A stretch of DNA of 51,582 bases. It comes from Desulfobacterales bacterium. GTDB lineage: Bacteria > Desulfobacterota > Desulfobacteria > Desulfobacterales > JALSRD01. The translations under genes were made by a program, and so were the position numbers. The notes beneath the pieces were generated by a model that saw nothing but the letters and a program-made list of their open reading frames with translations, ran no database searches and had not been told where the DNA came from. Within the stretch, counting starts at the first letter, position 1. Every line of letters starts with the position of its first letter. Below, piece after piece: positions 6,176-51,508 of the stretch. The stretch is from contig JALSRD010000065.1 in assembly GCA_026984935.1 (NCBI GenBank), forward strand, positions 1 through 51,582, written 5' to 3'.

Positions 6176-7546
6176 TTATCCCATATTCATCAGCACGTCG
6201 AGCATTTCATCCGTTGCGCTGATCAGCTTGGCCGCCGCCGCATAGGCATGCTGGAACTGCACCAGGTTGACCATCTCCTCGTCGATGGACACTCCGGATA
6301 CCTCGTCCCGGTAGCTTTCGAGCTGGTTCATCACCGACGTGTTCTGGTCGAACTGGTCCGCGGCCGTTTTGGCGCTGCCGGCCACGTCGCCCACCAGCGA
6401 TGCGTAGTAAGCGCCGAAAGTGGCCGTGTTGCCGTTCATCAGGTCCTGGAATTCCAGGTTGCCGATGGCCATGGCATTGGCCGCACCGCCGGGCACGTCC
6501 TCCGCCGCGCCGGCCGCCGCGATCTTGGAGGGATCACTGACAATGGCCGGGTTGACGGCGATGTTCGCGGCCGAAGTGGAGCCGGCGGCAAAGAAATCAA
6601 GGCCCGTGGAGTGATCGAGCCCCTGCCCGCCGGCATGCAGCGTGTTCACGTTATCGATGATTCCGGCGGCCAGATCGTTCAGGCGTGCGAGATAGTCCTG
6701 GCCATCGGTCTTGGCGGCCAGATAGCCGCCCACCTTTCCCGAGGTGATGGCCGAAGCGGCAATGACCGCCGGCCCGCCGGAGGTCTGGATGCTGAAATCG
6801 GGGTTCGTGTACGAAAGCGCGTAGGCCGTTTCATCGTCGACCAGGGCATGGCCGTCGATGCTGATGTTGACCACCGGGCCGCTTTCACTGGCACTCACAT
6901 TGGCCAGCGATGAAAGCTCCTTCACCAGCTGATCGCGCCGGTCTTTCAGGTCATTGGGCGCCTGACCCATGTTCTCCGCCTGGCGGATACGGCGGTTGAG
7001 CGCGGCGATCTGGCCGGCCTTGTCGTTGATGTCGCTGACCGCCTGGCCGATCTGCGTGTCCAGGTCGCTCTGCACGTCTGTCACAGCAGCGGACATCTGC
7101 TGAAAGCGGTCGCTCAGCGCCTGGCTCTTGGAGACCAGCTGCGACCTTTCCACGGACCCGCCGGGATTGTTGGCCAGATCCTGCCAGGCGTGCCAGAATT
7201 CCTGCAGATTGTGGTTCAGCCCGGTTTCGCCGGTCTCGTCAAAGATAATCTGCAGGCGTTCGAGGCCGCTTTTCTCGGCCTCCCACTTGCCCAGCTCCTG
7301 GCTCTGCCCATCGATCTGGGCGCCCAGAAAGCGGTCGTGCATGCGCTGGACGGAAACGGCCTGCACGCCGCCGCCCATCTGGCCCGGCGTTGCCGCGACC
7401 GGTTCACCGCTGGTCAAATCGACCCGCTGGCGCGAGTATCCGGGCGTGTTGACGTTGGCGATATTGTGGCCCGTTACCGAAATCCCGGTCTGCTGGACCT
7501 GAAGCGCGCTCCTGCCAATACCCAAAATATTAAACAGGCTGGACAT
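6176..7546 (-). CDS. flgK: Flagellar hook-associated protein FlgK (HAP1)
   Basis: 456 residues from the ATG at 7546, preceded by GAAAGGA; a longer in-frame extension overlaps cheB and lacks FlgK similarity. FlgK is the first junction ring on the hook. The N-terminal rod/hook signature is visible (TGHNIANVNTPGYSRQ), and so is the C-terminal helix (EEMVNLVQFQHAYAAAAKLI) typical of hook/rod family proteins. The length is short of the enteric protein (about 550), so the variable middle domain is reduced. It sits directly after cheB (21-base gap), so hook-junction genes are read from the end of the chemotaxis operon. Confidence 0.95.
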   Translation of the reverse strand: MSSLFNILGIGRSALQVQQTGISVTGHNIANVNTPGYSRQRVDLTSGEPVAATPGQMGGGVQAVSVQRMHDRFLGAQIDGQSQELGKWEAEKSGLERLQIIFDETGETGLNHNLQEFWHAWQDLANNPGGSVERSQLVSKSQALSDRFQQMSAAVTDVQSDLDTQIGQAVSDINDKAGQIAALNRRIRQAENMGQAPNDLKDRRDQLVKELSSLANVSASESGPVVNISIDGHALVDDETAYALSYTNPDFSIQTSGGPAVIAASAITSGKVGGYLAAKTDGQDYLARLNDLAAGIIDNVNTLHAGGQGLDHSTGLDFFAAGSTSAANIAVNPAIVSDPSKIAAAGAAEDVPGGAANAMAIGNLEFQDLMNGNTATFGAYYASLVGDVAGSAKTAADQFDQNTSVMNQLESYRDEVSGVSIDEEMVNLVQFQHAYAAAAKLISATDEMLDVLMNMG

Positions 7547-7566
7547 GACATTCCTTTCTGCAGCCT

Positions 7567-8634
7567 TCAGGCCGCAGCAGCTTCCTCTTGCAGGTGATGC
7601 ACCACGGCCGACGGAACCTGGTCCAGCGGCACCACGCGGTCTACGGCGCCCAGCGCAAGCGCGGCCCTGGGCATGCCGAAGACCACGCACGACTGTTCAT
7701 CCTGGGCCAGGGTGTGTGCTCCTTGGCGGTGCATGGCCAGCAGCCCGTCGGCACCGTCAGAGCCCATACCCGTCAGAAGCACGCCCACGGCGTTTTTGCC
7801 GGCGTGCCGGGCCACCGATTTGAAGAGCACGTCCACACTGGGACGCTGGTAGTGCACCCTGGGCCCGTCTTTCAGCTTCACGACATAATCACCGCCCTCG
7901 CGGGCCAGCAGCATGTGCCGGTTTCCCGGTGCCAGCAGAACCCGGCCGGGAACCACACGATCATTGTGGGCCGCTTCGCGCACCTGCAGGCTGCAGACGC
8001 CATTCAGCCGCCCGGCAAAGGCAGCGGTGAATTTTGCCGGCATGTGCTGCACAACCACCACGCCGTCCATAGACGCCGGGAACCGCTTCAACACGCATTC
8101 CAGGGCACGCGTCCCGCCGGTGGAAGCGCCTATGGCGACGACCTTGCGGGTAGTATGGACTAGCCGGATGTCCAGTGGTTCGCTCCGGCCCTGCCCCGGC
8201 ACAGGGGCCGGGCAGGCATGCACGGCGGCCCCGGCCGCCGCCCGCACCGCACGTACGATATCCCGGGCGACGTCTTCGACCGAAAAGGAGGAACCCGGTT
8301 TGCACAGCACCTCGACCGCTCCCATGTCCAGGGCCTTCAGCGCGGTTTCACTGTTTTCCGGCGTCAGCGAGCTCAACACCACCACCGGCATGGGATAGTG
8401 CCTCATCAGCTTGGCCAGAAAGGAAAGCCCGTCCATGCGCGGCATCTCGATGTCCAGGGTCAGGACATCGGGCTGCAGTTTGACGATCTTGTCGCGTGCC
8501 ACATAGGGATCCACGGCCGTACCTACGATATTGATGTCGGCATAACGCGAAAGCTCTTCGGACAGCACTTTGCGCACCACCGCCGAATCGTCCACGATCA
8601 AAAGATTGATGGTCCTATGCGCTTTTCCGGACAT
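7567..8634 (-). CDS. cheB: Chemotaxis response regulator protein-glutamate methylesterase CheB
   Basis: 355 residues. An N-terminal receiver domain (VDDSAVV; phospho-acceptor D61 in LTLDIEMPRMDG) is joined to a C-terminal methylesterase domain. The catalytic triad residues are visible: S171 in GASTGG, H197 in VVQHMP and D293 in TGMGSDGADG. CheB removes methyl groups from chemoreceptor glutamates when phosphorylated by CheA, opposing CheR. It lies six bases after cheX and upstream of flgK. The lengths of both domains are typical. Confidence 0.97.
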   Translation of the reverse strand: MSGKAHRTINLLIVDDSAVVRKVLSEELSRYADINIVGTAVDPYVARDKIVKLQPDVLTLDIEMPRMDGLSFLAKLMRHYPMPVVVLSSLTPENSETALKALDMGAVEVLCKPGSSFSVEDVARDIVRAVRAAAGAAVHACPAPVPGQGRSEPLDIRLVHTTRKVVAIGASTGGTRALECVLKRFPASMDGVVVVQHMPAKFTAAFAGRLNGVCSLQVREAAHNDRVVPGRVLLAPGNRHMLLAREGGDYVVKLKDGPRVHYQRPSVDVLFKSVARHAGKNAVGVLLTGMGSDGADGLLAMHRQGAHTLAQDEQSCVVFGMPRAALALGAVDRVVPLDQVPSAVVHHLQEEAAAA

Positions 8635-15119: not shown

Positions 15120-15443
15120 TCAAAGCAGTTCGTTGAGCAGGGCCTCCTCGATCATTTTGGAGGCCACCTTCTGGCCATCCACCTGATAGGTGCCGTTGGC
15201 AACCTGCAGCCGCAGCCGGGACACCTTCTGAGTATTTTCGCCGGGCGCCGGTGCCGAAACTTTACTGGCACCCGCCATCTGTTTCGACTTGGATGAAAGC
15301 ACCACTTTATCCTCACCAAGGACCTGTCCCGCGGGTTTGCCTGTCGCAGATTCCGCTTGTTTTTGCCCTCCGGCCTGGCTCCCCCTGATCTGTTTCAGGT
15401 AGTTTTCCAGGCTGACGGATGGATCTTTACCGCTGATTTTCAT
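15120..15443 (-). CDS. flgM: Anti-sigma-28 factor FlgM
   Basis: 107 residues from the ATG at 15443, with CGAGGAGG upstream. The N-terminal half is polar and probably disordered (rich in Gly, Lys, Gln, Ser). The C-terminal half carries the FliA-binding helices: KVSRLRLQVANGTYQVDG, then VASKMIEEALLNEL. FlgM holds FliA until the hook-basal body is complete and is then exported. It has its own sigma-28-like promoter at 15606-15633, giving the usual feedback loop. The length is typical (about 90-110). Confidence 0.93.
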   Translation of the reverse strand: MKISGKDPSVSLENYLKQIRGSQAGGQKQAESATGKPAGQVLGEDKVVLSSKSKQMAGASKVSAPAPGENTQKVSRLRLQVANGTYQVDGQKVASKMIEEALLNELL

Positions 15444-15605: not shown

Positions 15606-15633
15606 GTATCGGTCAACTCCCGCCGGATCTTTA
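15606..15633 (-). promoter_or_regulatory. Sigma-28 (FliA) promoter for flgM
   Basis: Read on the minus strand: TAAAG at the -35 and ACCGATAC at the -10, 16 bases between TAAA and the -10 octamer. The enterobacterial consensus is TAAA-N15-GCCGATAA. The site lies in the gap between the flgJ stop and the flgM start, about 160 bases upstream of the ATG. The -10 matches six of eight bases and the spacer is one longer than ideal. Confidence 0.55.
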
Positions 15634-21005: not shown

Positions 21006-21767
21006 TCAATCCCCATCGAGTAAACCGCTTTTGCGCAGTTTCTTGCGGATATTGATGACCGCCTCGCTGTGAATCTGGGAAATCCGGGATTCGGTCAACC
21101 CCATCACATCCCCGACTTCCTTCATGGTCAGCTCATCCTGATAGTAAAGGGACATCACCAGTTTCTGCTTTTCCGGGAGGCTTTCCACGGCCTTGGCCAC
21201 AAAGGATTTCAGCTCTTTGAGCTTGGTCATGTTCAAGGCGTCGTTGCGGTCGTTGTTGGCCAGGTAGGTCATCAGTTTGCGTCGGTCCTTTTTTGAAGAG
21301 CACCCGATTTCATCCAGACTGACAAATGAAATGCTGGCGATCTTCTTGGTCTGACGGACCTGTGCCAGGCTCATGCCCAATTCCTGGGCAACCTCGGCAT
21401 CCTTGGCTTCGCGTCCCAGCCGACGCTCCAGGCGGATATAGGCCTGCTCCAGTTCACGAACCTTCTTGCGGCTCGAACGCGAAAGGATGTCACGGGATCG
21501 CAGTTCGCTCAAAATCGCGCCCCGGATGCGGAAAGTGGCAAAAGTCATCAGCTTGACATCACGTTCGGGATCGTAGCGCTCGACGGCCTGAATCAGGCCG
21601 ATCACCCCGGCATGAATCAGGTCCTCGGGCTCTACACTGGCGGGCAGATGCGCCGAAAAGCGATGCGCGATGCGGTGGACCAGCGGCAGATATTCGGTGA
21701 CAATCCGGTTGCGCTCGTCCAGGTCGTCCCTGTATGGATTTTTCTGGGGCATGGCTGAATAACTCAT
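21006..21767 (-). CDS. fliA: Flagellar sigma factor FliA (sigma-28)
   Basis: 253 residues from the ATG at 21767; an earlier in-frame start would overlap flhG. Sigma region 2 is seen (IVTEYLPLVHRIAHRF, then DLIHAGVIGLIQAVERYD, FATFRIRGAILSELR), region 3 (RDILSRSSRKKVRELEQAY) and region 4 with the helix-turn-helix (LTMKEVGDVMGLTESRISQI). FliA directs RNA polymerase to late flagellar promoters and is held by FlgM. It is the last gene of the motA-to-fliA run, 11 bases after flhG. Sigma-28 sites in this window at flgM and the TPR gene are its likely targets. Confidence 0.97.
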   Translation of the reverse strand: MSYSAMPQKNPYRDDLDERNRIVTEYLPLVHRIAHRFSAHLPASVEPEDLIHAGVIGLIQAVERYDPERDVKLMTFATFRIRGAILSELRSRDILSRSSRKKVRELEQAYIRLERRLGREAKDAEVAQELGMSLAQVRQTKKIASISFVSLDEIGCSSKKDRRKLMTYLANNDRNDALNMTKLKELKSFVAKAVESLPEKQKLVMSLYYQDELTMKEVGDVMGLTESRISQIHSEAVINIRKKLRKSGLLDGD

Positions 21768-48322: not shown

Positions 48323-48802
48323 TTATTTGGGTTTGATAAATATCTCCACCATTGCAATGTAGTCCAGATAGCGGAAGCAGCAACGTTCATGCCAGCTCCA
48401 TTCCCTGGTTTCAATCTTGAAGTTTCCGCCGCTGGTGATGTTGGGAATGGAAAGTTCACAGGGGAAACCCATATCACACAAATGCGACTTCACGCCCCCG
48501 CCGATCATGTTGCTGACTTCCCCGATGACATCGTATACTTCCTCATCACCTTCGATTTCTTCAGGCTCCATCCCCAGCATGGCGCAGGTCATCTCGCGCG
48601 CAAAATCACCGTTGACGCAGATCCGGCTGCACCCCATGGCTTCGCCGGTGAAGCTGACGGACCCGACAATCTTATCCCCATTGAAAAAACCCTCGGGGAC
48701 ATCATCAACCAGCTCCACAGGCATCGACAGCATGGTATCGAAGACTTCCCGCGCCGTTTCAGAAGCGACATTCTTCAGCCTTTGCGCATCCATTATGCTC
48801 AT
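48323..48802 (-). CDS. Second CheX-type chemotaxis phosphatase
   Basis: 159 residues. Single CheC/CheX active-site helix with IGE95VSN98MIGGG, the E-x2-N pair. The preceding segment (GSVSFTGEAMGCSRICVNGD) is the beta sheet typical of this fold. It differs clearly from the che operon copy (8641-9129). It is paired with the receiver-STAS gene downstream. GGAG lies 12 bases before the ATG, a little far. A CheX-like phosphatase for the neighbouring regulator is the simplest reading. Confidence 0.78.
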   Translation of the reverse strand: MSIMDAQRLKNVASETAREVFDTMLSMPVELVDDVPEGFFNGDKIVGSVSFTGEAMGCSRICVNGDFAREMTCAMLGMEPEEIEGDEEVYDVIGEVSNMIGGGVKSHLCDMGFPCELSIPNITSGGNFKIETREWSWHERCCFRYLDYIAMVEIFIKPK

Positions 48803-49006: not shown

Positions 49007-49034
49007 TTATCCGCAGCCAGACGCCTCGACTTTA
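49007..49034 (-). promoter_or_regulatory. Sigma-28-like site upstream of the CheX-type gene
   Basis: Minus strand reads TAAAG, then GCGGATAA with 16 bases between TAAA and the -10; the consensus is TAAA-N15-GCCGATAA. The -10 has one mismatch. The predicted leader would be about 200 bases and contains the hairpin at 48904-48927, which weakens the case. Confidence 0.35.
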
Positions 49035-49131: not shown

Positions 49132-50322
49132 TCAGGCAACCCCTGAAAATCCGCTGAACTGGTCGCCGCCTGGGTCCATCACCTTGCCGTAAACGTCCTT
49201 GCCGCTGAATTTGAATTCGATGTGGGACGGGTCGATGGTGCCGTCACCGGCGGTATTCTGGGAAATGTCGAAATAAACCGTAGCCGTTGTAGATTCGGCG
49301 TCGTAAATCACCATTTTGGGAAACAGTGGTACCCGTATCTCGGTGTCGGCAACCGGAAATCCGAAATTATAGGCCGTTCCTGGCCCCGTGGCGGCAGAGC
49401 GCCGGATCTGCCAGTTCAGCGGGTTTTCGACCGACTCGCGGTCCATGGGCTTGTTGAAGGCAAACTTCATCGTAAAGGTCTTGCTGGCATCGGGCGTCTG
49501 CAGGTAGGCATCCAGAACCGCCACCGAGGTTTTCATGGGCATGCTGTAGCCAAAATCGGTGGAATACACAAAACTGAACTTGGGTGCCTCGACCTTGTAC
49601 ATGTAGCTGCTCAAACTGTCGGCCAGATCCGGATTCAGCTGCTGGAGAAGGTCGACCTGGCGCTGGGCATCATCCATCTGGCCCATGTCGGCATAGGCAT
49701 AGCCGATCTCGGCGTAGGCATCATAAAACTTTCCGTCTTTGCTCAAGGCCTGTTCAAATTGCAAAATGGCCTCGTCATAGCGTCCCTGCTTGGCCAGGTT
49801 CAGGCCCAGGCCGTAACTTCCGTCGGGCTTTTGTGGCTGCATGCGTTTGACTGCGTTGAACTGCGTTTCGGCGTCACCATAACGCCCAGTATGCATGTAG
49901 GCTTCTCCCAACGAAAAGCGGTTGGCGGCACTGGGGTTGAGGTTGACGGCCTTTTCGTATTCGGCCGCTGCTTCGGCATAGCGTTCATTGGAATAGTAGA
50001 GGTTACCTAAATTAATGTGGCTGTCATCACGGCTGGAATCCAGGCGAATACCGGTTTTGTAAGCCTTGATGGCGCCTTCAGTATCGTCCATGGCCAGATA
50101 GGCCTGGGCCATGTAGTTGGCGGCGTCCACGGCGTAACCGGAGCCCTGGGATAGTCCCAGCGACCGCTGGAACGCGCTTACGGCCCCTTTGTAATCTTTG
50201 CGCATGTACAGGTCGATACCGCTTTTCAGCGCATCGTTGGCCAGCTGCTCCAGCTGCTGCGGCTGCTGCATGGCGGCTGCAAAAAAACTGTCCGGACTGC
50301 TGATGCCGATTGTGTTCATCAT
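49132..50322 (-). CDS. TPR protein with C-terminal Ig-like domain, FliA-controlled
   Basis: 396 residues. No signal peptide: the start (MMNTIGISSPDSFFAAAMQQ) is short, polar and Gln-rich. About residues 30-245 hold six or so tetratricopeptide repeats (for example DYKGAVSAFQRSLGLSQGS, DDSHINLGNLYYSNERYAEA, GRYDEAILQFEQALSKD). Residues about 255-396 look like a beta-sandwich similar to SbsA-type Ig domains (FTMKFAFNKPMDRESVENPL, then NWQIRR). GACGGGAAATTT precedes the ATG. A consensus sigma-28 promoter lies about 31 bases upstream, so it belongs to the late flagellar class. Its function is unknown; an assembly factor, chaperone or exported late protein are options. Confidence 0.8.
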   Translation of the reverse strand: MMNTIGISSPDSFFAAAMQQPQQLEQLANDALKSGIDLYMRKDYKGAVSAFQRSLGLSQGSGYAVDAANYMAQAYLAMDDTEGAIKAYKTGIRLDSSRDDSHINLGNLYYSNERYAEAAAEYEKAVNLNPSAANRFSLGEAYMHTGRYGDAETQFNAVKRMQPQKPDGSYGLGLNLAKQGRYDEAILQFEQALSKDGKFYDAYAEIGYAYADMGQMDDAQRQVDLLQQLNPDLADSLSSYMYKVEAPKFSFVYSTDFGYSMPMKTSVAVLDAYLQTPDASKTFTMKFAFNKPMDRESVENPLNWQIRRSAATGPGTAYNFGFPVADTEIRVPLFPKMVIYDAESTTATVYFDISQNTAGDGTIDPSHIEFKFSGKDVYGKVMDPGGDQFSGFSGVA

Positions 50323-50352: not shown

Positions 50353-50379
50353 TTATCGGCAGATATGGAAATAGCTTTA
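50353..50379 (-). promoter_or_regulatory. Consensus sigma-28 (FliA) promoter of the TPR gene
   Basis: Minus strand reads TAAAG at the -35 and GCCGATAA at the -10, with exactly 15 bases between TAAA and the octamer. All twelve consensus bases match. The predicted transcription start lies about 23 bases before the ATG at 50322. Confidence 0.85.
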
Positions 50380-50687: not shown

Positions 50688-51508
50688 ATGTCCGGACTCA
50701 GTGTAGCATCATTTTTCCCCTTTCGTCGACTTAAAGTTTTCTACCAGGATGTAAACGCCGAGGTCACCGAAGCGCATATCATGACCAGAGCGGACTTGCG
50801 GTTCACGCCAGTGTGCCAGGCCTGCGGGAGCAAAGTTTCCGGTGTTCACAGCTGGACCAGGCACAAGATCCGGGATCTGAACATGGCTACCGCTACCGTG
50901 TGGGTAAGTTGCTATATCGCAAGGTATATTGTCCTCATTGCCAGCGCATTCATGTCGAGGATCTCGGTCTTTTCCATCCCTATCTGCGGGTCACCAGGCG
51001 GTTGGCCCGATACGTATATCAATTGTGCCGGGTAATGACCGTAACCGAAGCCGCAGAGCATCTGGGCCTGAACTGGAAAACGGCGAAGGCCATCGACAAA
51101 CAGTATTTGGAACGCGATTTCGGCCAGCCCGATTACGAAGGCCTGCTTATTTTGGCAGTGGACGAAATCTCGTTACGCAAAGGCCACCGGTACCTGACCA
51201 TCGTACTGGACTACGAAACCGGCCATGTCGTACATGTCGGCAAAGGCCGGAAGACAAAAACGCTGGTTCGTTTTTTCAACCAATTGAAGCTCCGGCAGCG
51301 CAAGGCCATCGATGCTGTGGTCATGGACATGTGGAATCCATTTATCAAGGCCGTCAAAAAGAAGCTGCCCAACGCCAAAATCGTTTTCGATCTGTTTCAC
51401 GTCGTGGCCGCATACAACCGGCTGATCGATAAGATTCGAAACTGCGAGCACCGAAACCCTGCATTCCCGACTTATTGTAACGAGGCAGGAGGCGTGACAC
51501 CCATTTGA
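50688..51508 (+). pseudogene. ISL3-family transposase, frameshifted and 3'-truncated
   Basis: The first frame starts at 50688 (AAAGGAGGCCTGCG upstream) and carries the N-terminal zinc-finger half (VCQACGSKVSGVHSWTRHKI). Similarity then continues in a different frame from about 50907: LLYRKVYCPHCQRIHVEDLG, the helix-turn-helix MTVTEAAEHLGLNWKTAKAI and the DDE core (LILAVDEISLRKG, AVVMDMWNPFIKAVKKKLPN, IVFDLFHVV). Restoring one A in GTAAG (to GTAAAG) would join both frames. The usual C-terminal third is missing: similarity fades after RLIDKIRN at about 51450 and the frame ends at 51508. It is not likely to be active. Confidence 0.82.

Follow-up and report, generated by a model that had tools for sequence, protein, structure and literature searches.

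According to the sections of PMC5072837 that are available, no flagella are formed without FliD, which chaperones flagellin at the tip. For Caulobacter, the accessible part of a 2020 flagellin study (PMC7591256) describes FlaF as the flagellin export chaperone and FlmG as a protein whose TPR part binds flagellin, and its model shows an 'X' for an unknown assembly factor that may take part. FliD is absent from Phaeobacter, where a CP1 mutant exports flagellin and shows no flagella by electron microscopy, and CP1 is encoded with fliC-flaF-flbT in the Rhodobacterales (PMC12363192, available excerpts). The available portions of PMC5072837, PMC12445082, PMC8306008 and PMC9812332 contain no statement on a replacement of FliD.

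Here, we analyzed a gene for a protein that combines a TPR solenoid with one Ig-like domain (TPR/Ig-like protein) and for which no describing paper was recognized in the open-access literature. It is located in a window of 51,582 bases, the whole stretch of DNA that was analyzed, together with genes for the sigma-28 factor FliA (21033-21704, minus strand; TIGR02479 match, E-value 3e-75) and the anti-sigma-28 protein FlgM (15120-15443, minus strand; FlgM match, E-value 2e-15).

Sigma-28 type promoter of the TPR/Ig-like gene

When the window was searched with the pattern TAAA-N14-16-GCCGATAA, one exact match was observed, whereas 100 dinucleotide shuffles of the window gave none. The match is the 27-mer TAAAGCTATTTCCATATCTGCCGATAA on the minus strand (TAAA-N15-GCCGATAA, from 50379 to 50353). 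The end of its -10 element is 30 nt from the first ATG (50322) of the gene, which occupies 49132-50322 on the minus strand (396 aa, stop codon included), and 33 nt from a second in-frame ATG (50319) as the alternative start. The first-pass annotation had claimed an exact consensus sigma-28 site at a correct distance from the start and better than that of flgM. All of this was confirmed. The flgM site TAAAGATCCGGCGGGAGTTGACCGATAC (15606-15633, minus strand) matches 10/12 bases with a 16-base spacer and is thus the weaker of the two.

Downstream, the TPR/Ig-like gene is followed on the same strand by cheX (48323-48802, minus strand). Between the two genes, about 204 nt before cheX, lies another sigma-28-like site, TAAAGTCGAGGCGTCTGGCTGCGGATAA (49007-49034, minus strand; 11/12 bases, 16-base spacer), and cheX may be transcribed with the TPR/Ig-like gene or from its own site. 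Relatives of cheX in three other loci (L096, L097 and L112) also have 11/12 sites near their starts. Upstream of the TPR/Ig-like promoter, an ISL3-family transposase fragment (50813-51505) lies on the opposite strand near the contig end.

Over the entire genome (3.89 Mb), the pattern with the loose spacer gave seven matches versus two for its reversed form, and one exact match alone is thus weak evidence for a promoter. With TAAAG-N14-15-NCCGATAW, which comes closer to the actual motif, there were 20 matches versus none reversed. One exact consensus on another contig (C23, 79670-79696) is about 170 nt from the contig end with no long ORF downstream, and its target gene may have been cut off by the break in the assembly. 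Nine ORFs downstream of sites from both genome lists were scanned (two without a match), and HDOD, STAS, solute-binding and response-regulator ORFs were observed behind some of them. Because FliA-type sites precede HDOD, STAS and solute-binding genes, the FliA regulon is wide. This favors an explanation in which the TPR/Ig-like protein has an accessory function in motility or at the surface (for adhesion, signalling or recognition of filament glycans) and merely belongs to this regulon, and in which its separation from FliD (see below) reflects lineage gene sets.

Conservation of the promoter

Orthologues were collected from an order sample (194 genomes) and a phylum sample (390 genomes), and a genome was considered a carrier if it encoded the protein including the C-terminal part. 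The promoter set consisted of 28 order-sample carriers and one close Desulfobacterales relative (n = 29); one fragment (G075) and one gene at a contig edge (G090) were left out of this count. Starts were chosen by hand as the nearest fitting ATG in the order set and were assigned automatically in the phylum set.

In the 120 nt upstream of the start, 26 of the 29 orthologues have a site that matches the consensus at 10/12 bases or more, compared with a mean of 0.66 and a maximum of 3 in shuffled upstream sequences. At least 11/12 bases were matched in 18 and all 12 in seven. The remaining three, all counted in, have no site (L018), a run of N upstream (L024) and a 9/12 site (L031). Among the other ORFs of the same regions used as controls, 32/553 reached 10/12 and 10/553 reached 11/12, the latter including several flagellins, cheX genes and, by eye, a FlgM-like gene. 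In the phylum sample, 14/26 copies reached 10/12 within 150 nt versus 7/328 control ORFs, and copies of the more distant family f98 often have no clear sigma-28 site. The flagellins of such genomes were preceded by the same kind of site within 200 nt in 16/19 cases.

The search upstream of orthologues had been set beforehand as a test that could refute the proposal, and the conserved site (26/29 vs 32/553) makes control by FliA very likely as judged from sequence. The proposal that the gene belongs to the late flagellar regulon is supported in both samples, and we regard it as a late flagellar gene with high confidence. Although the reversed loose-spacer pattern also occurs in the genome, a match by chance or for another sigma factor is hardly credible given the number of orthologues with the site and the same motif before flagellins. 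The chance match was therefore rejected.

Three genomes of the phylum sample (G541, G389 and G342) encode two copies of the protein each. One of the two copies has a site of at least 10/12 within 150 nt in G389 and in G342, and neither copy has one in G541. In locus L184 (G235; 7367-7870), a 12/12 site is followed by the Ig-like domain with no TPR part before it, which might reflect either a true deletion or a faulty assembly.

Domains, fold and composition of the protein

The TPR solenoid with its leading helix covers residues 10-243 (49594-50295, minus strand), residues 1-19 being modelled below pLDDT 50. The presence of several TPR repeats is certain, as the TPR_2 match of 100 bits is far above the Pfam cut-off of 27. 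Residues 244-396 (49135-49593, minus strand) form the C-terminal Ig-like beta domain, for which searches in Pfam (no match), PHROGs and PDB sequences gave nothing useful. The AlphaFold model of the whole protein (mean pLDDT 90.3, pTM 0.76) has a confidently predicted solenoid and, behind it, a beta domain; modelled alone, the C-terminal domain had an Ig-like fold (pLDDT 87.2, pTM 0.83). A structure search with the full-length model listed generic TPR proteins. Among the Foldseek-ranked matches used in the second-look comparison of the C-terminal domain, the best solved structure was SbsC (Z 9.1, rmsd 2.9, 97 aligned residues, 26% identity). Its Ig-like domain is the nearest solved fold, and since SbsC is an S-layer protein, this common fold does not show a common function. 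Conservation of the C-terminal domain equals or exceeds that of the TPR part (31/152 vs 27/214 columns at 96% conservation or more).

Neither FliD_N (PF02465) nor FliS (PF02561) was matched in the protein or elsewhere in its own genome, and no glycosyltransferase domain match or FliD-like helical leg was seen in the protein. Cysteine is very rare in 28 orthologues (9 in 11,104 residues, 0.81 per 1000), compared with 1.51 per 1000 in flagellins and 11.3 in all ORFs longer than 150 aa. No signal-peptide-like hydrophobic stretch was present at the N-terminus of these orthologues by a hydropathy check (no trained predictor). As sequence features, both properties would fit export through the flagellar channel. 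However, low cysteine is not decisive for export, because the cytoplasmic FliG has no cysteine in six sequences.

Filament type and gene linkage

The flagellin gene of the same genome is on another contig (C19), where it is followed by a cysteine-free gene and by genes for FlbT (E-value 4e-44) and FlaF (E-value 2e-30), and TPR-glycosyltransferase genes are beside it. The genome thus has a FlaF/FlbT-type system with a short flagellin, without FliD and without FliS. The cysteine-free gene between flagellin and FlbT (gene 4 of L092; 227 aa) has no Pfam match. Such a gene of about 225 aa recurs in seven loci, and it is a possible second filament factor. In total, 19 clustered flagellin ORFs of 267-300 aa were found, one of them from a non-carrier (G025); the flagellins of G013 and G087 are longer. 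Control searches in Caulobacter vibrioides found flagellin and FlaF and did not find FliD or FliS, so the filament system corresponds to the Caulobacter arrangement.

Genes for FliC, FlaF or FlbT were located within 10 kb of the TPR/Ig-like gene in 11 of 52 loci (6/26 in the order and 5/26 in the phylum sample), while the remaining 41 copies are not near flagellin genes. By our own arithmetic, 20 kb taken from a 4-Mb genome would include the flagellin locus by chance in about 1/200 cases. One of the three genes directly adjoins the TPR/Ig-like gene in G050, G098, G087 and G013. In G431 and G289, FlaF is directly 3' of it on the same strand at a distance of 75 nt or less, and may be a dedicated chaperone. 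The FlaF gene at this position in G289 is a second FlaF copy.

Co-occurrence with FliD, FliS and FlaF

In the order sample, 30/194 genomes were carriers, and FliD_N was found in 49, FliS in 51, FlaF in 35 and Flagellin_N, which can represent FlgL as well as flagellin, in 105. Flagellin_N was matched in each of the 30 carriers and FlaF in 24, and no carrier is among the 49 genomes with FliD or the 51 with FliS. Among the 105 flagellin-positive genomes, 79 have FliD or the TPR/Ig-like protein and none has both (Fisher's exact P = 5e-11, relatedness not corrected). The phylum sample gave 24/390 carriers, 198/390 genomes with FliD above the cut-off and no genome with both. A marginal FliD_N match in G389 (E-value 7e-4) was taken as one of the two among 200 that fell below the cut-off.

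Matches to the TPR part only were dropped from the carriers. These were 4/34 in the order sample (G026, G041, G124 and G187; 28-31% identity), of which G041 has FliD, and 5/29 in the phylum sample (G004, G199, G260, G461 and G545), of which G461 has FliD. Carriers were sought among the best nine (order) or best four (phylum) candidates per genome, and some absences may therefore be misses. The FliD of carriers may also be present and too divergent for the model. However, the carriers of the order sample do not have FliS either, and in the listed carriers every first-look candidate for FliD was scored.

A link to FlaF alone was rejected: three genomes (G018, G037 and G080) have FlaF and FliD without the protein, which accordingly tracks the absence of FliD rather than FlaF. 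Neither FliD nor the TPR/Ig-like protein was found in 26 of the 105 flagellin-positive order genomes, eight of them with FlaF. Four of these eight (G124, G140, G166 and G189) belong to the same genus as carriers, and the absence may be due to assembly gaps. In G025, G100 and G183 (96-99% complete) the absences look real, so some FliD-less filaments do without the protein.

No family of the order sample includes both carriers and FliD-positive genomes, and lineage alone could give the pattern in this sample, as the accessory explanation would have it. In the phylum sample, however, four families (f82, f121, f155 and f137) hold both alternatives, always in different genomes, which argues against pure lineage sorting. 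The accessory role is also opposed by the conservation of both domains and by the position of the gene directly next to flagellin or FlaF in several genomes, and we consider it unlikely. The gene is probably tied to the FliD-less filament. This agrees with the earlier suggestion that the product is needed with or after the filament, as the gene is confined to genomes that yielded no FliD match and, in the order sample, no FliS match either.

The main rival to a FliD-like role is a flagellin chaperone or checkpoint that acts in the cytoplasm before export, in place of FliS and together with FlaF and FlbT. In its favor, the carriers of the order sample lack FliS as strictly as they lack FliD, and in G431 and G289 the gene directly behind encodes FlaF, which serves as flagellin chaperone in Caulobacter. 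The flagellin binding by the TPR domain of FlmG (PMC7591256, available sections) points in the same direction. Against this, the role of export chaperone is already filled by FlaF, the Ig-like domain resembles cell-surface proteins, and the near-zero cysteine content differs from that of CheX (27.7 per 1000) and of TPR glycosyltransferases (16-25 per 1000). We find such a cytoplasmic role rather doubtful.

Proposed role in filament assembly

We propose that the TPR/Ig-like protein is a FliD-like filament-assembly factor, with a probability of about 0.45. This role is favored from the function of FliD at the tip, the binding of flagellin by the TPR part of FlmG, the possible factor 'X' and the phenotype of the CP1 mutant, and the evidence behind a replacement of FliD is of three types (gene content, linkage and fold). 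The site at 50353-50379 would work as a FliA promoter, so that the gene would be expressed late, at the filament stage, in a flagellum without FliD and FliS whose mostly short flagellins go together with FlbT and FlaF. The protein, which has no signal peptide, would then leave the cell by way of the flagellar channel. It may bind flagellin through its TPR solenoid and assist the incorporation of flagellin into the filament outside the cell, perhaps in the form of a cap. However, TPR proteins are often cytoplasmic, no FliD-like helical leg was seen, and most copies are not near flagellin genes, all of which speak against a FliD-like role.

That the protein is the filament cap proper is a tentative suggestion. 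The same caution applies to the more general idea of a missing cap or assembly factor of the FliD-less FlaF/FlbT flagella in the phylum, whose TPR groove would hold flagellin and whose Ig-like domain would shape the tip, perhaps by recognizing glycosylated flagellin.

Comparison with known flagellar systems

FliS is a small helical bundle and differs from this 396-aa protein with TPR and Ig-like parts. The protein resembles FlmG of Caulobacter, which consists of a TPR part and a glycosyltransferase, in having a TPR domain within a FlaF/FlbT-type system without FliD. It differs in having an Ig-like domain instead of the glycosyltransferase, and its own genome has separate TPR-glycosyltransferase genes beside flagellin. 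Like CP1 of Phaeobacter, it is specific to certain lineages and is associated with a flagellum without FliD. We infer that a gene annotated as DUF1217 at the position of CP1 on a Salipiger plasmid is CP1. When plasmid records were searched for the same protein in Alphaproteobacteria, no full-length relative of the TPR/Ig-like protein was found among 72,556 plasmids, 67 of them with FlbT and some with fliC-flaF-flbT.

The FliD (HAP2) cap is likewise encoded by a late gene of the filament stage and exported without a signal peptide, which for the TPR/Ig-like protein is our expectation. In structure the two are different, since sequence and model give a TPR solenoid with one Ig-like domain and no FliD_N. 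With its late promoter kept and its presence only where FliD was not found, the TPR/Ig-like family is a candidate for explaining how FliD-less flagella assemble their filament. If the protein is indeed a cap, filament capping would have evolved more than once, and this family would represent a second solution unrelated to FliD.
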